A stretch of 64,000 nucleotides of DNA, taken from positions 1 to 64,000 of IMG/VR virus record IMGVR_UViG_3300047553_000365; one strand, written 5' to 3'. The position numbers and the translations under genes were made by a program. Source of the DNA: a virus. Of this stretch, positions 2,757-64,000 are shown piece by piece. A model generated the notes under the pieces. The model saw only the letters and a program-made list of their open reading frames with translations. It had not been told where the DNA came from and did no database searches. The stretch's first letter is position 1. Each line of letters opens with the position of its first letter.

Positions 2757-2828
2757 GCAATGTTCGTCTAACGGCTAAGACAGGAAACTCTAAATCTCTC
2801 AATGCGGGTTCGATTCCCACACATTGCA
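2757..2828 (+). tRNA. tRNA with CTA anticodon (candidate amber reader)
   Basis: Acceptor GCAATGT/ACATTGC is a perfect 7 bp; the D stem is GTCT/AGAC and the T loop TTCGATT. With U33 conserved, the loop CTCTAAA gives anticodon CTA, which reads UAG. The anticodon stem GGAAA/TCTCT has a G-U pair and an A-C mismatch, and the T stem has one C-A mismatch, so the gene may be weak or decayed. CCA is not fully encoded (ACC). Confidence 0.65.
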
Positions 2829-2830
2829 CC

Positions 2831-3785: not shown

Positions 3786-4334
3786 ATGATAACTAAAGAA
3801 GAAGTATACAAGTTGAAGAGTAAAGATATTCTTAAAAGAGATTATGATAAAATCATAGATAAAATTTCTAGGAGAACTCAAGAAGTTTGGGAATATATAT
3901 GTTTTTTGCAGAATAGAACTATGGATTGGTGGGCATTTTCAAATGATGTGGAATATGCTGACGGAGACGGATCGAGTGGTGGAAATTTTGATGTAAAGAA
4001 CGATTTTAAGTATATTTCAATTGGTGGAGAGAATAGTCCGGGTTACTATTCAAAGGCTGGATGGTCATTGGAATCTCGTAAGTATACATATGAGTATGGG
4101 TTTCCCACAGAACTTCTTTGGGATAAAAACTGGAAGAAGACTATTCAAAAATTTGTTGACGAAGAAAGAAATATCATCGAAAATTATAATAAGAAAGAGA
4201 AAGATAAGAAACTGACTAAAAAAGAAAAAAGACAAAAACTGGCAGAGAATATTCGTAGTAAATTGACAAGAGATGAAATTAAATTTATTATGACCAAGTT
4301 CACAAAGGCAGAAGAAAAAATACTGCTTAGTTGA
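3786..4334 (+). CDS. Hypothetical protein with basic coiled C terminus
   Basis: 182 residues, not recognised. The middle (residues 45-110) is rich in Gly, Ser and aromatics (YADGDGSSGGNFDV, SPGYYSKAGWS). The last third is a charged helix (KKEKDKKLTKKEKRQK). Tandem arrangement with the previous ORF suggests cotranscription. Confidence 0.75.
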   Translation: MITKEEVYKLKSKDILKRDYDKIIDKISRRTQEVWEYICFLQNRTMDWWAFSNDVEYADGDGSSGGNFDVKNDFKYISIGGENSPGYYSKAGWSLESRKYTYEYGFPTELLWDKNWKKTIQKFVDEERNIIENYNKKEKDKKLTKKEKRQKLAENIRSKLTRDEIKFIMTKFTKAEEKILLS

Positions 4335-4339
4335 AAACG

Positions 4340-4440
4340 CGGAGTTAGTAGCAAGTAAAATGTCCTCTATTTAGGGGGAAGTTGGAAAAACATAGTGAAA
4401 ATTCTAGATGAGTAACTATGGGTGCAAGTCCTCCACTCCG
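4340..4440 (+). ncRNA. Cloverleaf-like structured element upstream of CDS
   Basis: CGGAGT (4340) pairs with ACTCCG (4435) around three hairpins: CCTCTA/TAGGGG near 4364-4377, CATAGT/ACTATG at 4391-4420, and a short GGG/CCT hairpin whose loop GTGCAAG sits where a T arm would. A CDS starts 3 bases later, as after real tRNAs here. No canonical D or anticodon arm is visible, so it may be a decayed tRNA or a tRNA-like RNA. Confidence 0.35.
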
Positions 4441-4443
4441 ATC

Positions 4444-4677
4444 ATGAAAGAATACAAACCAATTAAACTCATTCCTAAAAGTTCTACATATATGGAATGG
4501 GTGGAAACAACCTCCAATGCTCTTGGAGTCCCCTTCGATCCAAATGATCCGAAGCATTATGAAAATTCAAAAAGATCTCCTATATTGGAGCTTTTAGGAT
4601 TAAATGAAGAAAAATCTGGTAATGGTAAAATTCCATCTGAGATGAAAGAAAGTAGGTCGTCAAACCGAAACAAGTAA
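4444..4677 (+). CDS. Hypothetical protein
   Basis: 77 residues from ATG 4444 (an ATG at 4408 lies inside the structured element and is less likely). Polar, low-complexity C terminus (EMKESRSSNRNK); no recognised motif. Confidence 0.6.
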   Translation: MKEYKPIKLIPKSSTYMEWVETTSNALGVPFDPNDPKHYENSKRSPILELLGLNEEKSGNGKIPSEMKESRSSNRNK

Positions 4678-4727
4678 TCAATCAAGAGATAAAATACCCA
4701 TAATTCCTTGACGGGGGTTATGTAAAA

Positions 4728-4800
4728 TCCCAAGTAGCTCAGTGGCAGAAGCGTCTGACTGTTAATCAGAATGTCGTAGGTTCGACCCCTACCTTGGGAG
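4728..4800 (+). tRNA. tRNA-Asn(GTT)
   Basis: Acceptor TCCCAAG/CTTGGGA, discriminator G, anticodon arm CTGACTGTTAATCAG, T arm GTAGG-TTCGACC-CCTAC. CCA is not encoded. Confidence 0.95.
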
Positions 4801-4874
4801 CAGGTTGTCGGTAATGAGCAACGATGTATGAAATAAATCGTTATAATGTTGGTCACATTTAAAAATGACCACTA

Positions 4875-4948
4875 CGGAATATTGCGTAATCTGGTATCGC
4901 GCTTGCTTTGGGAGCAAGAGACTTTGGGTTCGAATCCCAATATTCCGA
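4875..4948 (+). tRNA. tRNA-Pro(TGG)
   Basis: Acceptor CGGAATA/TATTCCG, anticodon arm CTTGC-TTTGGGA-GCAAG, T loop TTCGAAT, discriminator A. A homing endonuclease gene starts 7 bases later. Confidence 0.95.
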
Positions 4949-4954
4949 CATAGA

Positions 4955-5941
4955 ATGAAACCGAAGCGAACAAAGTATAGTGATTCTCTAATCGAGAAAA
5001 TTGTAGACTATATCTACAACAAAGGACATTCCTTTGGAGAAGCAGTTGAGGAATTTGATTTACCTGAAAGTACCATCACATACCTTACTTGGAAATATAG
5101 AAAAACCACAGACGATAAAATATATATTCATGGTCCACATACCAAATATACCGATAACTTAATTGATGATGTCGGAGATTATATTTATATTGGTGTAAAA
5201 ACTAAAAGAGAGGCTATGAATAAATTCGGAAAAACCAATAAAGTAATTATTACAATAATTAAAAAATACCGAGATAAATATAGTAACGATCCTGTAAAGA
5301 TTCCTCACATAGAATCATACCATAGCAAAATTCTAAAACGTGTAAATAGTGAAAAAAATAGAGAAGTTTCTAAATCCAACATAGCCTTAGTTGAAACATA
5401 TAATCAGGGGGTTAGGTGTGACGAAGAAGGAAACCTATTATCTCCCGACAATACGCCGAGGAGATTGAGAGAGGATAAAGATGGGTATTTAATATTTTCA
5501 AATAATGTAAGTTTTGGTTCATATCCCGTAAAATTACACCGACTACAAGCATATCAAAAATATGGCGATAAATTGTTTGAGGATGGTATAATGACCAGAC
5601 ACTTAGATGGAAATCCAAAAAATAATAATATTAATAATATTGATATCGGTGATAATTACCAAAACCAACAAGACATTCCAGAAGACATTAGAAAGAAAAG
5701 ATCAGTGAGAGGGTTAATAGAGGCTAAAAAAGCAAACACGAAATATACGGACGAATTTAAAAGGGAGGTGGCTGAATACATGTATATAGAATGTCACACA
5801 TCTAGAGAAGCAGAAAAAAAATTCAACTTGCCATTTTTTACCCTACAAAGACTTGCAAGAGACGCTGATCTTAAATTTAATATCGGAAGAAATGAAAATT
5901 ATAATAAGATAATTAAAAACATTCACAAAAGAAAGAAATAA
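4955..5941 (+). CDS. HNH-type homing endonuclease with HTH modules
   Basis: 328 residues from ATG 4955. Two N-terminal and one C-terminal helix-turn-helix-like units (S-x5-V-DYIY ... AVEEFDLPESTI) flank a nuclease core with LHRLQAYQKYGD and MTRHLDGNPKNNN, the pattern of phage HNH homing enzymes. The core and the preceding QGVRCDEEGN segment match the endonuclease at 7404, so the two are paralogues. It lies directly behind tRNA-Pro. Confidence 0.8.
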   Translation: MKPKRTKYSDSLIEKIVDYIYNKGHSFGEAVEEFDLPESTITYLTWKYRKTTDDKIYIHGPHTKYTDNLIDDVGDYIYIGVKTKREAMNKFGKTNKVIITIIKKYRDKYSNDPVKIPHIESYHSKILKRVNSEKNREVSKSNIALVETYNQGVRCDEEGNLLSPDNTPRRLREDKDGYLIFSNNVSFGSYPVKLHRLQAYQKYGDKLFEDGIMTRHLDGNPKNNNINNIDIGDNYQNQQDIPEDIRKKRSVRGLIEAKKANTKYTDEFKREVAEYMYIECHTSREAEKKFNLPFFTLQRLARDADLKFNIGRNENYNKIIKNIHKRKK

Positions 5942-5944
5942 ATT

Positions 5945-6118
5945 ATGTTTAACTTAGATATATTTAAAAAAGAGAAGGAAGAAGAGATATCATTACAAGA
6001 ATGTTTAAAAAGATTTGAGGGGGTGATAGATTCCGATGATGAACTTAATCATGGATATCGAAAAATAATTTTGCATCTTCTAGATAGAATTGAGAAATTA
6101 GAAAAGGTTCAAAAATGA
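5945..6118 (+). CDS. Small acidic hypothetical protein
   Basis: 57 residues, highly charged (KKEKEEEISLQECLKRFE), probably helical. Its stop overlaps the next start (ATGA), so translation is coupled. Function unknown. Confidence 0.6.
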   Translation: MFNLDIFKKEKEEEISLQECLKRFEGVIDSDDELNHGYRKIILHLLDRIEKLEKVQK

Positions 6119-6402
6119 AATACACCTATAATATAGAGTGTCCTCTTGGTGACAAGTGGGTAGCATTTATAAAAATGCAAACAAGAACCTATTGTGATGG
6201 TTATTTGGATGCATTGGAAGGACAATTCCCAAGAAATAACTTGCGTATGGTTCGATCTGATGGTAAGATAGTTCGTGAAGTAAAAGCATTTGATGACGTA
6301 AGTGTTGGAATGATTGCAGGATGGCCTACAGCAGAACAATACGAACATGCAGCAGAAAGAGCCTTGGAAAAGGCAAAGAGAATTAGAGAGAAAAGATTAT
6401 GA
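6115..6402 (+). CDS. Hypothetical protein
   Basis: 95 residues, beta-rich first half (YTYNIECPLGDKWVAFIKMQ) and a helical C terminus (EHAAERALEKAKRIREKR). Overlaps both neighbours by 4 bases. Not recognised. Confidence 0.75.
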   Translation: MKYTYNIECPLGDKWVAFIKMQTRTYCDGYLDALEGQFPRNNLRMVRSDGKIVREVKAFDDVSVGMIAGWPTAEQYEHAAERALEKAKRIREKRL

Positions 6403-50943: not shown

Positions 50944-50957
50944 ATTTATTATTACAG

Positions 50958-51086
50958 TGGCATGGGTGGGAATCGAACCCACACGCCCTAAACGGGCAAC
51001 GGATTTTGACGATTAATATAATATTGTTTCAACTATATTAATCGGTTTAAAAAGTCCGTAGCGTCTACCAATTCCGCCACCATGCC
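50958..51086 (-). tRNA. tRNA-Leu with a 44-base anticodon-loop insertion
   Basis: Acceptor GGCATGG/CCATGCC, Leu-type D arm (GGCGGAATTGGTAGACGC), class II variable arm GCCCGTTTAGGGC and T arm GTGGG-TTCGATT-CCCAC are all intact. The anticodon stem ACGGA/TCCGT is split by an insertion (about 51009-51052) containing an 11-bp hairpin CGATTAATATA/TATATTAATCG. Removal after U33 gives CAA, removal after U34 gives TAA; both are Leu. No group I core is visible. Confidence 0.8.
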
Positions 51087-57487: not shown

Positions 57488-57513
57488 GGCCCCATTATAA
57501 GTCGGTTTTAATT
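57488..57513 (-). promoter_or_regulatory. Compact AATTAAAACC promoter
   Basis: AATTAAAACC, GACT, TATAAT, 6 bases, ATG 57487. Confidence 0.85.
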
Positions 57514-57521
57514 AACCAAAC

Positions 57522-57740
57522 TTAACAGCCAAAGTATACAATCCCATCTTCTTCACAAAATATAAATGGAAATTCTTCCTCTGGATCATGCTCTGTGCAT
57601 TTCCTAAAGAACTCATAGTTATCTAATGGTATTGTTCTAGCCTCATCCACCTTGATATAAATGGGTTTATCATTATAGTCACAGTCTGTTAAGAAGTCCG
57701 CAACCTGCCCATAATTATTCAATCCCTCAATCTTATTCAT
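57522..57740 (-). CDS. Hypothetical acidic protein
   Basis: 72 residues, acidic, ends FIFCEEDGIVYFGC. Unknown. Confidence 0.65.
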   Translation of the reverse strand: MNKIEGLNNYGQVADFLTDCDYNDKPIYIKVDEARTIPLDNYEFFRKCTEHDPEEEFPFIFCEEDGIVYFGC

Positions 57741-57741
57741 A

Positions 57742-58065
57742 TTAATTAGTTGTTGGTTTATTATCTAAATCCATAAAAAACTTTCTAATAGAAGTGACAT
57801 AGAACATCTTAGTTTGATTGGCGATATTCGATTTAAAAAGAAATGACGGCATATCAAAATCATTCTCATAAGCGAACACCGTAGTATTGTCATTGATTCT
57901 GCCAATGAAACTTGGATCGCTCTTAGTGATCGCCTTGTCCTTTAACACCTGACAGAGATTGGCGATAGCTTCATCGCTAGACTTCTGATTTGAAAGGAAT
58001 ATAAAGCCAAGATGTTCCAAGTAATTAGCCCTAACCTCATCTAATGTGATGTTCGCAATATTCAT
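57742..58065 (-). CDS. Hypothetical protein
   Basis: 107 residues from ATG 58065. Alpha/beta, not recognised. Last gene before the noncoding RNA array; no compact promoter seen upstream. Confidence 0.6.
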   Translation of the reverse strand: MNIANITLDEVRANYLEHLGFIFLSNQKSSDEAIANLCQVLKDKAITKSDPSFIGRINDNTTVFAYENDFDMPSFLFKSNIANQTKMFYVTSIRKFFMDLDNKPTTN

Positions 58066-58149
58066 GTGTATGTGATATACGGGACCGCTTATGTCATACC
58101 ACGCACACAAAGTTATTATAACTTAATGAATTTGATATTTTAATAAGTT

Positions 58150-58194
58150 TGTTATAAAAATGAAAGTGGTGTAGTCTTTCACAACTACACCACT
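58150..58194 (-). terminator. Rho-independent terminator of the RNA array
   Basis: AGTGGTGTAG and CTACACCACT form a perfect 10-bp stem. Reading in the minus direction it is followed by a T-rich stretch (TTTCATTTTTAT). It closes the array transcript. Confidence 0.75.
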
Positions 58195-58230
58195 CGTTTA
58201 GGTATATCAAACAAATCTCTTTTTTATTAT

Positions 58231-58305
58231 AGAATCCCGTTCTACCACTAAACTAACCGCTCCATAAGGAGGGTATTGGAATCGAACCAATGACTGGATT
58301 TTGGA
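58231..58305 (-). ncRNA. Permuted tRNA-like module 3 (Gly TCC-like)
   Basis: In transcript order: TCCAA, AATCC, AGTC, T arm ATTGG-TTCGATT-CCAAT, acceptor strand ACCCTCC, linker TTAT, acceptor strand GGAGCGGT (pairs with one bulged C), D arm GTTT...GAAC, GGATTCT. Joining the ends gives anticodon arm GGATT-CTTCCAA-AATCC, the Gly(UCC) loop also used by tRNA-Gly at 7331. Confidence 0.7.
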
Positions 58306-58357
58306 TTAATAATGTTACTTGCTGTAGAGATTTTATCAGAAATCCATCTTGTTTGCT

Positions 58358-58451
58358 TCCCTGCGTCTACCAGTTTCGCCATCCCCAACGTTTATTTATA
58401 TAAGTGTGGGGAGTAGGACTTGAACCTACAGGTGATCTATTGATCGCGGGA
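58358..58451 (-). ncRNA. Permuted tRNA-like module 2 (Leu-like D arm, long variable arm)
   Basis: TCCC, variable hairpin GATC/GATC, T arm GTAGG-TTCAAGT-CCTAC, acceptor strand TCCCCAC, 17-base linker, acceptor strand TTGGGGA (6 of 7 pairs), Leu-type D arm TGGCGAAACTGGTAGACGC, then GGGA, which pairs with TCCC. The anticodon loop cannot be rebuilt with confidence. Confidence 0.6.
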
Positions 58452-58510
58452 CTTTACATTGCTATTATTTGCTGTTGAATTTCTTATCAGAACTTGTTTT
58501 TTTCTTTTTT

Positions 58511-58580
58511 CATGCTGCCACTACACCATACGCTCCGCTAGGAACGTAGCAGGATTCGAACCTGCGCCTCTTGTTTACAT
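58511..58580 (-). ncRNA. Permuted tRNA-like module 1
   Basis: T arm GCAGG-TTCGAAT-CCTGC, acceptor strand TACGTTCC, linker TAGC, acceptor strand GGAGCGTA (8 pairs including one G-U), D-arm-like GGTGTAGTGGCAGC. No good anticodon stem was found, so this copy may be purely tRNA-mimicking. Confidence 0.65.
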
Positions 58581-58894
58581 ACAATTAGATAATATTTGCA
58601 GTTCAAGTTCTTATCAGATTACATTTTACTTGGTTTCATTTATCAATTGAATAGTATATATTTGCTGTATTGTAATCTTATCAAGTCTCGTTTTTTCCTA
58701 TTTTGCTAATTGGTTTTTTATATTTGCTGGTTGAGACTTTATCAGAATAGTTTTGTTTCCTTTCTTAAATGTAGAATATATTTGCTGGACTATTCTTATA
58801 GAATAAAGGATTCAATACTTGGGATTACCATCATTTCGCAGCAAGCTTAACTGTATCAGGGTTCCTTTTCAAGCCTTTATTCATGGCGTAATAC

Positions 58895-58923
58895 TATTTA
58901 TCACAATAGCATTACGGTGTCAA
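58895..58923 (-). promoter_or_regulatory. Sigma70-type promoter of the RNA array
   Basis: Minus-strand TTGACA (58918-58923), 17-base spacer, TAAATA (58895-58900). Transcription would begin near 58888, just before the first stem of the array. Confidence 0.65.
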
Positions 58924-58967
58924 GTAGTTAGTGTTATGAGCAGTAAACTACTGACAAGGTGCTTAGG

Positions 58968-60620
58968 TTAAACTTCGACCATGTTTAGAATCTCTTGGTC
59001 AAGAGCTTCTTCCATGAGTTCGTAAGTGGTCTTAATCTTGCCGCTAAGGAAAGAGATAACGGATGCAGAGTATCCACCGAAGTAATACACATTAAGCGCA
59101 TTCTTACCAGTTTCAAACTTCTCACCAGTTCCCTTACCATAGTAGTTACTTTGGAGATTCCAAAGAACGATTACAAATTCATCAACATATTCCTTAGAGA
59201 ATCCTGCATTTCTAAGAGTAGTGCGAGCAGCATCCACATTAGTCTTATTCAAACTAGCAGGATTAAACTCACTATCACTAATGCACAGAATTCCACGGGG
59301 GAAATCAGATTCGGGAGTTCCTTGTTTCTTCATCTTGCAGAACAAGTTAATAACACTTTGGAAGTTGGTTGAACCAACAAATCCTGACTTATCATTCTTC
59401 CACTTGGAAGTAGGAGAATGACCATTCCACTTGTGAAGCTTTGCATCAGAATTGAATTCAATCCAATGTCCTGCGAAAGTTCCAGTAAGGAATTCACTAA
59501 AGTAAAGAGCAAGAGCCTTACCAATATCATAGCAAGTAGACTTAGTTCCAGTAGCAATGCTACCCATAGAACCAGAAGTGTCACGCACCACGATTAGGTT
59601 GGTATAGTTTTCACCTGCCTTAGCCTTATCAACAAGAGTTTGAAACTGCTTATCAATAGTAAGTTCCTTGTTAGAATCCCCTTGCCAATGACCTTCAAAG
59701 AGTTCATGGACAAATCCAGTATACTTAACAGCAGTAGTCTCAGGCTTCTTAATCCATTCAGAATACTTCTCACTAAGACCTTGATTCTTAAGGAACTTGC
59801 TCTTAACAAGAATCGACAATGCACGACCATGAATCTTACTAAAGTCGATATCCTTAAACTTACCTTGTGAGATAAGCTTTTGCCAATCGTGTGCAGATCC
59901 ACTAGTCTTAAGCTTACGATACTTCTTGTAGTTAGCAGGAGAAGTCTTGCTTCCAAACAGTAGATAACAAATCCACTTAGCAATTTGATTATTAGACTGT
60001 GCATCCACAGTAGTAGCTTGAGACTTAGCCTTGATTTGTGGAAGATACTTCTTCACAAGATCGCAGGTCTTATCATTATTAAGTGCAGCCAGAATCAGTT
60101 CACCAAACTTATCCCAATCCAATTGACGGTTTTCCCATCCATTGTAACTAAGATCATATTGCAGCATGGTAAACACATCATGCCATGAACCCACAGAAAC
60201 AAACAGCAGAATGTTATTCCAGAAAGAATCAGGAGAAACAGTGTGCAGCCAAATCATACGCATGATAGCTTCATGCTTAAGTTCAGTTCCAAGTTGAGGA
60301 TTCTTAGTCTTACTACCATCAGGCAGACTAACAATACGAGGAATGGTTCTAAGGAACAAAGTAAACTTTACTGCCTTAAGAGGATCTTCACCCCAAAGAG
60401 TAGATGCATCAGCAGCAATCTCAGAAAACTTGCGGGGAGTCTTGTAATTACCAGCCTTAGTAAATTGATCGACTAGCGTAGAGCCTGAAGATTTAAACTT
60501 CAATGCTCCATTACCAGAACGAGTCTTATTCGATTCTGCATTGGCATTAGCAAGAAACTCATTAACTTTTTTACGAGTCACTTTACGCACGGTTTCGGCT
60601 TGTCTTTTATTCTCAAACAT
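58968..60620 (-). CDS. Ro60/TROVE-DUF2828-like protein with vWA domain
   Basis: 550 residues. A helical-repeat N-terminal two thirds (AVKFTLFLRTIPRI, LLFVSVGSWHDVFTML) is followed by a von Willebrand A domain with an intact MIDAS motif, VVRDTSGSMGS, and LCISDSEFNP later. This layout is shared by DUF2828 proteins and the TROVE ring protein Ro60, which binds Y RNAs and defective RNAs. The tRNA-like RNA array follows it and a Thg1-like gene precedes it. Which of the two families is closer needs a profile search. Confidence 0.75.
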   Translation of the reverse strand: MFENKRQAETVRKVTRKKVNEFLANANAESNKTRSGNGALKFKSSGSTLVDQFTKAGNYKTPRKFSEIAADASTLWGEDPLKAVKFTLFLRTIPRIVSLPDGSKTKNPQLGTELKHEAIMRMIWLHTVSPDSFWNNILLFVSVGSWHDVFTMLQYDLSYNGWENRQLDWDKFGELILAALNNDKTCDLVKKYLPQIKAKSQATTVDAQSNNQIAKWICYLLFGSKTSPANYKKYRKLKTSGSAHDWQKLISQGKFKDIDFSKIHGRALSILVKSKFLKNQGLSEKYSEWIKKPETTAVKYTGFVHELFEGHWQGDSNKELTIDKQFQTLVDKAKAGENYTNLIVVRDTSGSMGSIATGTKSTCYDIGKALALYFSEFLTGTFAGHWIEFNSDAKLHKWNGHSPTSKWKNDKSGFVGSTNFQSVINLFCKMKKQGTPESDFPRGILCISDSEFNPASLNKTNVDAARTTLRNAGFSKEYVDEFVIVLWNLQSNYYGKGTGEKFETGKNALNVYYFGGYSASVISFLSGKIKTTYELMEEALDQEILNMVEV

Positions 60621-60685
60621 ATTAGTATTTTAGTTTATTTTTTCGATTTGTCAATAGGCTTTTCGATTTTTTCTTTCGATGCCAC

Positions 60686-60705
60686 AGTATATTACGGTTT
60701 TAATT
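60686..60705 (-). promoter_or_regulatory. Compact AATTAAAACC promoter with long leader
   Basis: AATTAAAACC, GTAA, TATACT. Unlike most copies, no ATG follows at 6 bases; the Ro60-like ATG is 65 bases on, so this mRNA should have a 5' leader. Confidence 0.8.
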
Positions 60706-60717
60706 ACTATCTTATTT

Positions 60718-61458
60718 CTAATATAACCATAAATCTTCCTCACTTGTAATAGCACCAAACAAGAAATCATTAATAGAAAGGTAATCAGTTAGGTTATAAT
60801 TATCACCTTTAGTTGGCGACCACCATGACCCATTTCTTTGTTGGTCAGAGCATTCATCCTCCCAACTGTGTCCAATCTTTTTAAGCATTTCTTTTTGATC
60901 TGCTCTACCTTGTCCATGTAATTCTTTAGGAGAAAAATGAGACAGGCAAAACATAGAGATACTATTTCTTTCCCAATCCTTAACTCTCCATAGAAAGACA
61001 TTGGCAACATCTTCTTTCGGACATTGAAATGCTCTAGCATCAAACACAGCAGGATTATATGATCCGATATTAAATCTACCATTATCCCAATTCAAACATG
61101 TCCAAGTTTTATTGAAGTAGGCAGTCATTAGTGCAGCAGTAACAGATTCAATCTTATTCTGTCTACCACCGAACCATTGTTGAGTTTCAATACTACCACT
61201 ATCATCCAACACAAAAGTTACTTCATCACTTTGAACATACAATCCTTTACAGTTTTGCATTTCCTTAGCAACATACTTAGCAGAAATAAACATAGCATTG
61301 ATTAACTTCGTATCAAAAGGTTTATCGCAACCTTTAGTCCAAGTATGAAATGCCTTACCATCTACTCTAACAAGGATAGGAACCTTGGGAGTAAAGTAAT
61401 GTTCACTGATAGATTCGTAGTGTTTGATTCTATCACCTAATGTATCTTTGCTATTCAT
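60718..61458 (-). CDS. Thg1-like 3'-5' RNA polymerase (TLP)
   Basis: 246 residues. VPILVRVDGKAFHTWTKG and LYVQSDEVTFVLDD carry the two metal-binding carboxylate motifs (RxDGxxFHxFxK and YxQSDExxFV) of Thg1 family enzymes. Thg1 adds G-1 to tRNA-His; Thg1-like proteins repair 5'-truncated tRNAs by templated 3'-5' addition. The phage tRNA-His lacks encoded G-1, and a tRNA-like RNA lies just upstream of this gene. Ends in TAG followed two codons later by TAA. Confidence 0.88.
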   Translation of the reverse strand: MNSKDTLGDRIKHYESISEHYFTPKVPILVRVDGKAFHTWTKGCDKPFDTKLINAMFISAKYVAKEMQNCKGLYVQSDEVTFVLDDSGSIETQQWFGGRQNKIESVTAALMTAYFNKTWTCLNWDNGRFNIGSYNPAVFDARAFQCPKEDVANVFLWRVKDWERNSISMFCLSHFSPKELHGQGRADQKEMLKKIGHSWEDECSDQQRNGSWWSPTKGDNYNLTDYLSINDFLFGAITSEEDLWLY

Positions 61459-61495
61459 TTTTAATAATTTCTGCTACATTTATAATGGAAAAGGT

Positions 61496-61628
61496 GGGTG
61501 GGATATCCCAATAGCTTCATATACCTACTGAATCGAACAGTCCTTATATCATTATAGAAGAATGATATCGTGCAATTACTAGTATTTTTAAGCCCGTGAA
61601 CACTCAAGTATAGAGGCTATTGCCACCC
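61496..61628 (-). ncRNA. tRNA-like RNA with extended outer helix
   Basis: Reading minus: outer helix GGGTGG/CCACCC and CAATAGC/GCTATTG, then acceptor-like TATACTT/AGGTATA, an enlarged D region of about 37 bases, an 8-bp anticodon-like stem ATATCATT/AATGATAT with loop CTTCTAT (would be Arg TCT), AAGG, and a T arm ACTG-TTCGATT-CAGT. No ORF. The outer helix and oversize D region rule out an ordinary tRNA; a tRNA mimic or processing substrate is likely. Confidence 0.6.
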
Positions 61629-61639
61629 ATTAAAATTTA

Positions 61640-61981
61640 TTATTGAAGTTCATCAAGGTCTTGATATTCTTCCACGGTGTAGGTGAACTCAATATTGTCA
61701 GGATTAACATCCTTAAAGTAACGAATAGCCCTGTCTTGAATTCTAGTAAGAGCATCCAACACAATCACCCTGCGTTCAGGAACTTTAGGAAGTTGATAGC
61801 TGTCTGCCATAGCTCTAGCCATAGCAATCTTCAAACCATCTGCTTTATTAAAGCGATCATAGACGGTATTAAGAAGAGAGAAGCCATAACGAACTTCATC
61901 ACCATTACGAACTGCGATAACAACACCACGGGGTTGCCTAGTCTTTTCATCGCGAATGTATTCTTTAATTACGGTTTGCAT
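61640..61981 (-). CDS. Hypothetical protein
   Basis: 113 residues, basic N-terminal half with DEKTRQPRGVVIAVRNGDEV, helical C-terminal half (RAIRYFKDVNPDNIE). Unknown. First gene of the tRNA-like RNA, Thg1-like, Ro60-like stretch. Confidence 0.7.
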   Translation of the reverse strand: MQTVIKEYIRDEKTRQPRGVVIAVRNGDEVRYGFSLLNTVYDRFNKADGLKIAMARAMADSYQLPKVPERRVIVLDALTRIQDRAIRYFKDVNPDNIEFTYTVEEYQDLDELQ

Positions 61982-62009
61982 ATATGTATTTTGTTTTTGT
62001 TGTGACCAT

Positions 62010-62029
62010 AGTATAGGTCGGTTTTAATT
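62010..62029 (-). promoter_or_regulatory. Compact AATTAAAACC promoter with short leader
   Basis: AATTAAAACC, GACC, TATACT; ATG of the next gene is 28 bases on (61981), so this one is not leaderless. Confidence 0.8.
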
Positions 62030-63128
62030 ACAAATCTATTTTGTGAAATTGATAATATAATCCAATTTGTGCAGCAATCATAAGTATAAAGGCAGTAATA
62101 ACCCATCCAGTAGGAATTAGAAATGCTGTATCTCTATACATTGTCCAATCATGCGGTCTAAAATCTCTTCGCACAATTCTCTTGATATCAGGAATGATAT
62201 CATCATTCACGGGTTTATCAAGTAAAAGTGTTTGTAAATTTTGCTTTACGAGTTCAGACTTTGACCATCCGAAAACATAACACCATTCCGCAGGTTTAGT
62301 TGGTTCTCCACCATAGCAGATAACGATATCATTTTTCTTACCATTCTTCCAATATGCTTGTAGATTCTTAGCCTGTTCAATTCCATTAGGAAGTTTAACT
62401 AGAATAAGGTTAATATGTTTTTCCGCACCCAAGGCAGCATTCATCTTATCCCAATCCCAAATAGTCATTTCCGTATTACCTACTAGACGAGAAGAACAGA
62501 AGGTATTATTTTCAGGATATGAAAAGAGTCTTAACTTTCTTGCTTCCTGTTCAGAAATATCTTTATATGAATAAAGGTTTTCAGTTCCAATCAAAGGGTT
62601 TTGCCAACTGTTTGTTAATGTAACAGGATAGTCACAATACTCTGGATCGTCTTTAACATAGCTGAAGTAATCATTTCTATCACCAGAATCATAATCAGGT
62701 CTATGTCCCGGCTTGGAAACTATACCATGTTTCTTGGAGATTTGTTTAAAGAAGTTCTCTGATATACTAATATCTCCAATAGTAGTTTCAACCCACCACT
62801 TAGGATAATGCGTTTCATGTCTAGTCACCCACCTAGTATGAGTTTCAGTATTTCCCTCACTATCAGTTGTAGTGTATGTTTCAAGTTCCTCCCATTCTGC
62901 TTCCCATCTTGGAATATGAACAGCAGTTACAACCCTACCAGATAAAGTCTCTGTGTCAGATTTAACACTACATTCCGATACTCCAAGAACAAACATGATA
63001 AGGACTAGAGCAGTTCCAACACTAACACCAGCCTCTTTAATACTGATAGTTGAGAACTTCATCCATGAAATAACCCCCGCAATAACGGGGATTATCATTA
63101 GAACAAATAGCCAGTATCCGTAAGTCAT
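62028..63128 (-). CDS. Membrane protein with large soluble domain
   Basis: 366 residues. Hydrophobic helices at the N terminus (about 3-23 and 30-50) and one at the C terminus (about 340-360) flank a soluble domain of some 270 residues with WVTRHETHYPKWW and DYPVTLTNSWQNP. Paired with a LemA-like gene, in which context such proteins are often envelope components. Unknown function. Confidence 0.7.
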   Translation of the reverse strand: MTYGYWLFVLMIIPVIAGVISWMKFSTISIKEAGVSVGTALVLIMFVLGVSECSVKSDTETLSGRVVTAVHIPRWEAEWEELETYTTTDSEGNTETHTRWVTRHETHYPKWWVETTIGDISISENFFKQISKKHGIVSKPGHRPDYDSGDRNDYFSYVKDDPEYCDYPVTLTNSWQNPLIGTENLYSYKDISEQEARKLRLFSYPENNTFCSSRLVGNTEMTIWDWDKMNAALGAEKHINLILVKLPNGIEQAKNLQAYWKNGKKNDIVICYGGEPTKPAEWCYVFGWSKSELVKQNLQTLLLDKPVNDDIIPDIKRIVRRDFRPHDWTMYRDTAFLIPTGWVITAFILMIAAQIGLYYQFHKIDL

Positions 63129-63129
63129 A

Positions 63130-63687
63130 TTACTTTACCCATTCGGTGTTATCTTCTCCAGTCCTAAAGTTTTCCTTAGTTTCAGCAGAAGTTACAATAA
63201 CCACTTCAATCTCTTTCTTTCCAAGGAACTTCAAAATCATTCCAGTAGGAAACATATTAATCATATCATCTGCTTGTCGTTTAATTTCCAATAGACGAGT
63301 CTGGGAAAATTGCCAATCCTTACGACCTGCCACAACAATGTTTTGTAGGTTCTTAAGAGTTTCAATTCTCTGAATAGATGGCACAGCTTCCGTTACCATT
63401 CCAACAGTTACCAATGCACCATCCCCAGCAGTATTACCCCCACGCGCATTAGCATAACCAGTAATGATATTAGTTAGTGCTTCCACTTCCTTATCGGAAA
63501 CATTTGCAGCTTCCTTAATTTGTTTTCGGGTATTATCCAAAACATTTTGGTTATCTACCTGAGTTGCTTTTGCTAGATTTTCCAATCTGGTATAACTATT
63601 AAAGCTACCAATTACTGAAAATAGGAGAATGATTCCAAGTAGAAGCACACCCCCCACGACTGTTCCTGCGATTATTAGTTTATTCAT
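63130..63687 (-). CDS. LemA-like protein
   Basis: 185 residues. N-terminal transmembrane helix then SFNSYTRLENLAKATQVDNQ and later RIETLKNLQNIVVAGRKDWQ, the helical-bundle pattern of LemA proteins (YNxLVxLxxxVxxAWxxV). LemA function is unclear; here it pairs with the membrane protein downstream. Leaderless start. Confidence 0.7.
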   Translation of the reverse strand: MNKLIIAGTVVGGVLLLGIILLFSVIGSFNSYTRLENLAKATQVDNQNVLDNTRKQIKEAANVSDKEVEALTNIITGYANARGGNTAGDGALVTVGMVTEAVPSIQRIETLKNLQNIVVAGRKDWQFSQTRLLEIKRQADDMINMFPTGMILKFLGKKEIEVVIVTSAETKENFRTGEDNTEWVK

Positions 63688-63713
63688 ATGTGTATTGTAT
63701 TTCGGTTTTAATT
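63688..63713 (-). promoter_or_regulatory. Compact AATTAAAACC promoter
   Basis: AATTAAAACC, GAAA, TACAAT, 6 bases, ATG 63687. Confidence 0.85.
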
Positions 63714-64000
63714 AAATTTTTGCAAGTTTGTTTTTAATTTCTACTAACCAAGCATCGTAGTTATTAAACACTGGAATTCCGTAACGCTGACAAACAATGT
63801 CTACATTACCCTTTCTCCAGAATTCATCAGGACAACATACAACCACTGATCTAGTATTTGCATACAGTCCAAGTTCCAGTAATGAAATAGGAGACTTAGT
63901 ATTAGGATCAAAATACAAAGCAATAATGTCTGCCTTATTAAGATGATCTAATTCCCAAGTTACCTGTTCATAGAATTGTGGATTGTTGAGTTCTTGTTTC
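63712..64000 (-). CDS. Nucleoside 2-deoxyribosyltransferase-like protein, start outside window
   Basis: The frame is open to the window edge. Residues read QVTWELDHLNKADIIALYFD, SPISLLELGLYA, VVVCCPDEFWRKGN, RYGIPVF: the C-terminal half of a deoxyribosyltransferase-like Rossmann domain (ISLLELG is the motif with the usual catalytic Glu). Only the 3' part is present. Likely nucleotide salvage. Confidence 0.7.
   Translation of the reverse strand, partial: KQELNNPQFYEQVTWELDHLNKADIIALYFDPNTKSPISLLELGLYANTRSVVVCCPDEFWRKGNVDIVCQRYGIPVFNNYDAWLVEIKNKLAKI

Follow-up and report, generated by a model that had tools for sequence, protein, structure and literature searches.

What is the structured RNA that lies directly ahead of a gene for a Thg1-like 3'-5' polymerase in a phage genome, and does it belong to that enzyme? 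The locus is part of a 64,000-nucleotide (nt) stretch of DNA (the window, meaning the whole stretch analyzed), which is positions 1 to 64,000 of the 138,655-base IMG/VR virus record IMGVR_UViG_3300047553_000365. The original prediction placed a tRNA-like RNA before a Thg1-family gene and offered three roles for it: substrate of the enzyme, regulator, or another Y-like RNA for a Ro60-like protein encoded nearby. We found that the window RNA apparently belongs to an undescribed small phage RNA family, with 10 distinct members of 78-140 nt in nine phage contig types. What is kept is a frame rather than the core, consisting of a 7-base-pair (bp) helix P1, a bulge of 7 nt on the 3' side, another helix (P2) and a 3' ACC, and the sequence constraint on the bulge points to pairing between two copies of the molecule.

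The window RNA reads, from 5' to 3', P1, P2, acceptor, D-like arm, 8-bp arm, T arm, acceptor 3' strand, P2, bulge, P1 and CC, with the following parts:

61493-61632, minus strand: whole structured RNA (frame and core together), 140 nt (covariance-model boundaries, with the window sequence in the training set)
61623-61629, minus strand: P1 5' strand, TGGGTGG
61616-61622, minus strand: P2 5' strand, CAATAGC (first four pairs counted in covariation tests)
61520-61612, minus strand: variable core, tRNA-like here (descriptor search and 20,000 shuffles)
61606-61612 with 61520-61526, minus strand: acceptor TATACTT/AGGTATA, 7 bp, one G.U
61570-61603, minus strand: outsized D-like arm, 34 nt, GTGT-26 nt-GCAC (read from the sequence; minimum free energy (MFE) fold)
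61546-61568, minus strand: anticodon-like arm, 8 bp, with 7-nt loop CTTCTAT, which would read UCU (MFE and centroid folds)
61527-61541, minus strand: T arm, ACTG-TTCGATT-CAGT
61509-61515, minus strand: P2 3' strand, GCTATTG
61502-61508, minus strand: 7-nt bulge GGATATC, a purine plus the self-complementary 6-mer GATATC
61495-61501, minus strand: P1 3' strand, CCACCCA
61493-61494, minus strand: CC following A, the final base of P1; all 10 members share the ACC end

The acceptor, anticodon-like and T arms, the outsized D region and the outer helix of the original prediction are all present on the minus strand. An acceptor with an adjacent T arm arose in 0 of 20,000 dinucleotide shuffles, a test of a shape picked after the sequence was seen. 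The whole RNA folds with z = -1.7 to -2.2, and the core by itself does not exceed shuffled sequence in stability (z = 0.18). ARAGORN made no tRNA call at 61493-61632, and the Rfam tRNA model RF00005 did not recognize the window RNA at E <= 10. The core is tRNA-like but not a tRNA, and the outer frame is much better supported.

Across the 10 members, 100% of P1 cells were paired and five of the seven pairs carried two-sided changes. Taking P1 (seven pairs), P2 (four) and the bulge self-pairs (three) together, 99.3% of 140 cells were standard pairs and 11 of 14 pairs showed two-sided changes (35 cells; covariation 0.749). Shuffles averaged 71.1% paired, 5.9 two-sided pairs, 9.8 two-sided cells and a covariation of 0.168 +/- 0.038; none of 500 reached the observed values, and sliding the partner strand lowered pairing to 46.7% or less. 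This alignment consists of joined ends chosen by hand, without gaps; a full-length alignment of nine members gave 99.2% standard pairs and a covariation of 0.679, again reached by 0 of 500 shuffles. When folding was constrained to the frame, seven of eight members attained their free minimum energy and the eighth (L189) was off by 0.3 kcal/mol. A UGA/AAU internal loop follows P2 in seven of the 10 members, and the ACC end is followed by A (ACCA) in five. The original prediction was to fall if relatives that keep the thg1-like gene in the same place had lost the helices: the tRNA-like helices are indeed missing there, but compensatory changes have preserved the outer ones.

In all 10 members the final six bases of the bulge are self-complementary, by Watson-Crick pairs in eight and only through G.U in two, with seven different 6-mers (members carry their locus numbers; L182 holds two, L182a and L182b):

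GAUAUC: window and L041
GAAUUC: L040
GUUAAC: L157, L166 and L181
GGAUCC: L182a
UCCGGA: L182b
GGUAUC: L189, self-complementary only through G.U
GUAUGC: L009, self-complementary only through G.U

The 6-mer background in nine of the loci is 1.1% for Watson-Crick palindromes and 4.8% when G.U is included, and within the last 40 nt no other offset tested was self-complementary in more than two of the 10 members. Considered alone, the three bulge pairs are 100% paired and all vary on both sides; no shuffle of 500 matched the percentage paired or the covariation, and 43 of 500 had as many two-sided pairs. Adjacent self-complementary bases cannot pair with each other within one chain, and the constraint therefore points to contact between two RNA copies, an argument from palindrome-to-palindrome covariation that the excerpted text of PMC12286853 makes for the OLE and GOLLD RNAs. 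The palindromes that hold only through G.U favor RNA over DNA as the pairing molecule.

Relatives were gathered through thg1, the Ro60-like protein and p113, a 113-amino-acid gene upstream of the RNA. By eye, the p113-thg1 spacer of L040 and the array end of L041 show the same RNA ends as the window (AAUGG..GGC at the 5' end; the bulge plus CC..CCACC at the 3' end). L157/L158, whose RNAs are identical, and L166 were obtained by thg1 synteny, and L181 (= L186 = L187), L182a and L189 by pattern scan. Covariance models in which the bulge is left unpaired found L009 (E = 4.8e-7) and L182b (E = 0.14). Model R1, trained on three members with their ends joined, did not return any training sequence at full length; R2 missed L009 when run over genome records, and cmsearch with R2 on the L009 locus found the match. 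A descriptor with the UGA/AAU and CC terms and no fixed P1 or bulge sequence gave 29 hits in 2.25 Mb of collected DNA (both strands, duplicates included), all of them members.

Of two pattern scans, the one of IMG/VR for GAWWTC bulges returned 30 loci, comprising two members (L041 and L120 = L040) and 28 chance loci, which were dropped on P1/P2 pairing and for having no match to model R3 better than E = 0.36. The scan for G....C bulges returned 13 loci, nine of them members (six distinct, three of these new: L120 = L040; L181 = L186 = L187; L182; L189; L190 = L166; L191 and L192 = L157 and L158); L183, L184, L185 and L188 were dropped with a P2 of only 0-1 bp. Weak model hits were not counted (G016, G007, G017, G030, G006, G014, G033, G045, G039, L065, L023, L118, L122, L105, L119 and second hits in records G001, G024 and G025), and the descriptor had no hit in L208 (G016), L210 (G045) or L211 (G039). 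The single match of a genome-contig scan, in Kribbella, was rejected for a P1 strand that had no 5' partner. BLAST against known phages gave only weak hits and no member for the L182a RNA, no member among the best 20 of 31 records for the L189 region (these match its neighboring tRNA-Arg part), and no match for the L181 region or the window core. The exact T-arm pattern retrieved nothing in IMG/VR. Rfam 15 returned no family match at the member positions (window at E <= 10; L040/L046 and L009/L048 at E <= 3; L041, L157, L166, L181, L182 and L189 at E <= 5), and a literature search, mostly at the level of titles and abstract openings, found no description of the family.

Several observations weigh against this reading of frame and bulge. 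The 6-bp contact is weak: for five of the seven 6-mers, duplex energies range from -3.0 to -8.4 kcal/mol. Both pattern scans pre-selected the bulge as GAWWTC or G....C, and chance bulges of these forms are often self-complementary: 10 of 29 non-member GAWWTC matches in the 28 loci, and one of four non-member G....C bulges (L188, via G.U). Four members were not selected for self-complementarity, namely L157 and L166 (synteny) and L009 and L182b (bulge-unpaired models). A palindrome-bulge descriptor lacking the UGA/AAU and CC terms gave nine chance hits in GC-rich loci (L011, L013, L100, L101, L108 and L115). One of the 28 loci dropped from the GAWWTC scan, L115 (66% GC), has a 7-bp P1, a 4-bp P2 and a bulge, GATTTC, that is not self-complementary, and would count against the bulge rule if it were a real family RNA; it is absent from the R3 hits at E <= 1. 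The window and L166 have no UGA/AAU loop, and L181 has only three P2 pairs. Most members fold little better than shuffles (whole-RNA z of -0.5 to -3.1), and fold stability by itself is weak evidence for RNA structure. Finally, members are few and related, with GUUAAC in three and GAUAUC in two, and the shuffle tests therefore overstate independence.

The bulge could instead be a twofold-symmetric site at which a dimeric protein or a DNA enzyme binds or cuts. Palindromes are typical of such sites too and a 6-bp RNA contact alone is weak, but seven different 6-mers fit a sequence-specific reader poorly, and DNA does not use the G.U pairs through which two of them are palindromic. We regard such a site as unlikely.

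Inside the frame, sequence is exchanged wholesale. L157 and L166 come from near-identical phages, with 311 of 324 positions identical upstream of the RNA and 353 of 367 downstream (~96%), while their cores (91 and 56 nt) agree in 31 of 100 alignment columns, against 27.4 +/- 4.6 after shuffling. The breakpoints fall in P1 and in the bulge; P1 pair 5 changes from U-A to C-G, a compensatory change, and pair 3 from G-C to G.U. The swap is specific to the family RNA, since a tRNA-like RNA just upstream differs between the two loci only by single bases. Read by eye, that upstream RNA (L157, ~4230-4390) has an acceptor TTGAGTG/CACTCAA and a T arm GTGGA-TTCGAAT-TCCAC. Cores are unrelated among members in general, and the window T arm is absent from the nine others. 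The core was accordingly rejected as a conserved feature: a TTCRANY loop on a stem occurs only in the window (1 of 10), and L157 has one such heptamer with no stem.

Taken together, these sequence patterns suggest that the family RNA is probably a dimerizing scaffold that presents an exchangeable core. Like a tRNA, the RNA would be excised from longer transcripts, as suggested by a p113 stop only 7 nt (window) or 2 nt (L009) away, by one member (L189) that sits between tRNAs, and by the ACC or ACCA end. Two copies would then pair through their bulges in a symmetric kissing contact, and the dimer would act in trans, showing two copies of the core, the part that may meet a partner. In the window the core would mimic a tRNA with a UCU-type anticodon arm; such a core suggests that the target is most likely tRNA-handling, making tRNA-handling or tRNA-cutting proteins the first candidates. 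Replacement of the core between close relatives is what would be expected of a part that matches, or escapes, a changing partner, and the link to Thg1 may reflect a common RNA-handling neighborhood rather than a dedicated pair of enzyme and substrate. A small family whose frame is constant and whose core is exchangeable, of which L157 and L166 offer a natural core swap, would serve as a readily testable model of why phages retain self-associating RNAs next to tRNA and RNA-repair genes.

A more specific and rather speculative extension is that phages use this self-dimerizing platform against tRNA-targeting defenses, with the plug-in core as a fast-changing bait. The tRNA-Arg-like anticodon arm of the window could then occupy a host anticodon nuclease, and the phage tRNA set and a Thg1-type repair enzyme would be its companions. 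Phage-encoded tRNAs that counter tRNA-cutting defenses are known, according to the portions consulted of PMC10264068 and PMC11555353.

Gene context separates the scaffold from the roles first proposed. The minus strand carries, in order, p113, the RNA, thg1 and the Ro60-like gene (58968-60620), which is the next gene-length open reading frame (ORF) after thg1 and is followed by an array of Y-like RNAs (~58200-58980, minus strand). The two genes that flank the RNA are:

61640-61981, minus strand: p113, immediately ahead of the RNA; serves as the marker for the p113-RNA-thg1 order
60718-61458, minus strand: gene for a Thg1-like 3'-5' polymerase, 246 amino acids (ORF with Pfam, PHROG and solved-relative matches)

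As originally proposed, the second gene encodes a Thg1-family member, an assignment that is secure: the product matches Pfam PF04446 (E = 9.3e-28; 97.2 bits, cut-off 29.2) and PHROG 4717 (E = 4.5e-71), and its best solved relative is 4kgk, a 'Thg1-like uncharacterized protein' (E = 1.1e-38). The protein carries the DG..F and SDE motifs, which are metal-binding in the family: residues D33 G34 and S77 D78 E79 do not vary among four aligned phage Thg1 proteins and align with 4kgk. No Pfam, PHROG or NCBIfam match was obtained for p113.

The RNA lies between p113 and thg1 in five of six distinct phages (window, L040, L009, L157/L158 and L166). The sixth, L047, keeps the gene order and gave no match to the RNA models, nor did L160/L161, in which Thg1 is present. 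Only in the window does the RNA stand directly upstream of thg1, ending 34 nt ahead of its start, which agrees with the predicted placement. Genes or RNAs intervene in the four other spacers: the distance is ~1.0 kb in L040, with an ORF that has LAGLIDADG motifs by eye and no NCBIfam match, ~0.87 kb in L009 and ~0.36 kb in L157, with two ORFs, L166 being nearly identical there. A second shared element, GTAAGARTCTTTTTCATGCGGAGT...CCCGTTCTTATA, was noticed by eye in L040 (3260-3320), where it precedes the LAGLIDADG-like ORF, and in L047 (4870-4930), where it directly precedes thg1.

Other members lie apart from thg1. In L041 the RNA immediately follows the final CAGCAAA unit of the array that trails the Ro60-like gene; in the L181 group it comes after a small gene, and in L189 it lies between tRNA-Val and tRNA-Arg in a cluster of 28 tRNAs plus a transfer-messenger RNA (tmRNA). 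L182 has its two copies within an array whose several RNAs are separated by UUUCCA. Contigs of L041 (7 kb), L181/L186/L187 (6-11 kb), L182 (20 kb) and L189 (48 kb), which may be fragments, contain no Thg1 match. A search limited to the Ro60 type of the window found none in G019-G028 or G004, many of which are fragments; RNA-bearing records without that gene are G024 (202 kb), G025 (124 kb), G026 (139 kb), G020 (48 kb) and G019, and RNA and gene occur together in the window, L040 and L041. Thg1 and this Ro60 type therefore do not appear to be required partners. Because the RNA occurs on contigs without thg1 and on records without the Ro60-like gene, each of the three roles suggested at the outset is unlikely.

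The best placed of these is the role of a Y RNA for the Ro60-like protein, its frame differing from that of the array RNAs. A Ro60-like protein near the RNA, as predicted, is borne out by structure: no Ro60 in the PDB was matched by sequence profile, and the solved structures closest to the predicted fold (predicted local distance difference test score 85.6) are Ro autoantigen 1yvr and human Ro60 9nen (Foldseek E ~1e-4; template-modeling scores by query length of 0.51 and 0.40, respectively). This gene adjoins thg1, and the position of the L041 copy directly behind an array is also in keeping with a Y RNA. But five RNA-bearing records have no match to the gene, CAGCAA is found in 0 of 10 members, neither R2 nor R3 hits the units of the array, and the YrlA model RF02553 matches, in 57500-64000, only the array (58205-58325; 28.5 bits, below cut-off), so that a Y RNA is improbable.

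The arrays behind the Ro60-like gene (window 58200-58980, minus strand; L040 7700-9080; L041 5200-5900; L044 6920-7280; L042 7700-8120) consist of short RNAs, many of them, by eye, a stem opening with a CAGCAAA-type motif, and several hold circularly permuted, YrlA-like tRNA-like parts (T arm, acceptor, D arm). The window array also scores 32.7 bits with Dictyostelium class I RNA at 58615-58677, below cut-off. In L157, whose 202-kb record has no match to this Ro60-like gene, a YrlA-like hit lies downstream of thg1 (6214-6344; 34.6 bits, below cut-off), and phages with the RNA but no such gene may therefore encode a Ro protein of another kind.

Still less probable is that the RNA serves the adjacent Thg1-like polymerase as its dedicated substrate or guide, for nucleotide addition or repair at the 5' end. 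The shared gene order in five of six phages speaks for it, as does the acceptor-like ACC end, followed in half of the members by an A with U opposite. However, the frame also occurs on the contigs, perhaps fragments, that lack a Thg1 match; L047 and L160/L161 have thg1 and no RNA-model match; and the tRNA-like part is confined to the window. The tRNA-His of the phage (window 16290-16363), which by eye has U73 and no encoded G-1, is a simpler target and may be the natural one. As a general Thg1 partner, such an RNA was rejected: upstream of 31 Thg1 loci (L009-L039) ARAGORN called 0 tRNAs, and the one T-arm-like match lies 738 nt away, in L036.

Much the same low probability attaches to a mobile or cassette element whose ends are kept as such rather than as RNA: constant ends, a swapped inside and scattered locations would suit one, but P1 and P2 covary in pairing instead of forming fixed terminal repeats, and L182 alone has a second strong hit per record. 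Least probable is a cis-acting leader that regulates thg1, which the 34-nt distance in the window invites and which the intervening genes or RNAs in L040, L009, L157 and L166, and the members on contigs with no thg1 match, contradict.

Several of these loci hold further RNAs. In L182 (~4480-5900, minus strand) a dense array of distinct, structured-looking RNAs has UUUUCCA-type spacers and several ACC/ACCA ends by eye, and the tmRNA gene in the tRNA cluster of L189 lies at 5889-6293 (55.9 bits, above cut-off). The window encodes a tRNA-Leu (CAA) whose anticodon region holds a 44-base insert, an intron according to ARAGORN (50957-51086, minus strand). A tRNA with the amber-reading anticodon CTA is carried, each time within a large tRNA set, by the window (2757-2830) and two related phages, G001 and G002 (L134 3941-4013; L152 16159-16232).

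Among known systems, the rnaC and rnaD (species 1 and 2) of phage T4 are similar in being small (139 and 119 nt), of unknown function and in a phage tRNA region, as stated in the parts consulted of PMC3014915 and PMC12685909. T4 rnaC carries a T-arm-like segment in the T4 record (L194), in which R3 found no match at E <= 0.1. YrlA (RF02553) likewise joins tRNA mimicry to a long stem, and some family members lie near a Ro60-like gene. However, in YrlA and the window array the tRNA-like part is permuted, with the T arm before the D arm (cmscan alignment), whereas the family RNA has the normal order; its frame differs too, and RF02553 does not match it. This comparison draws on the Rfam model and on PMC7790460.

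ROOL and OLE are much larger than the family RNA. A further likeness is to GOLLD, ROOL and OLE as described in the excerpted text of PMC12286853: structured phage or bacterial RNAs of unknown role that self-associate, with GOLLD and ROOL often near tRNA islands and tRNAs sometimes held in the variable linkers of GOLLD. There, GOLLD often exceeds 800 nt and has many contacts, and the three form cages or a dimer of long pipes, unlike the family RNA with its 78-140 nt, its one self-complementary bulge in a stem and no Rfam match. The symmetric kissing contacts of OLE and GOLLD are supported by palindrome covariation (PMC12286853), and the family bulge has the same property, as regards covariation only. 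By its sequences, the family RNA resembles GOLLD in a covarying symmetric contact and is not a member of the GOLLD family; a covariation-backed case for self-pairing, made before for large RNAs such as GOLLD and OLE, would now extend to a small family with the same signature.
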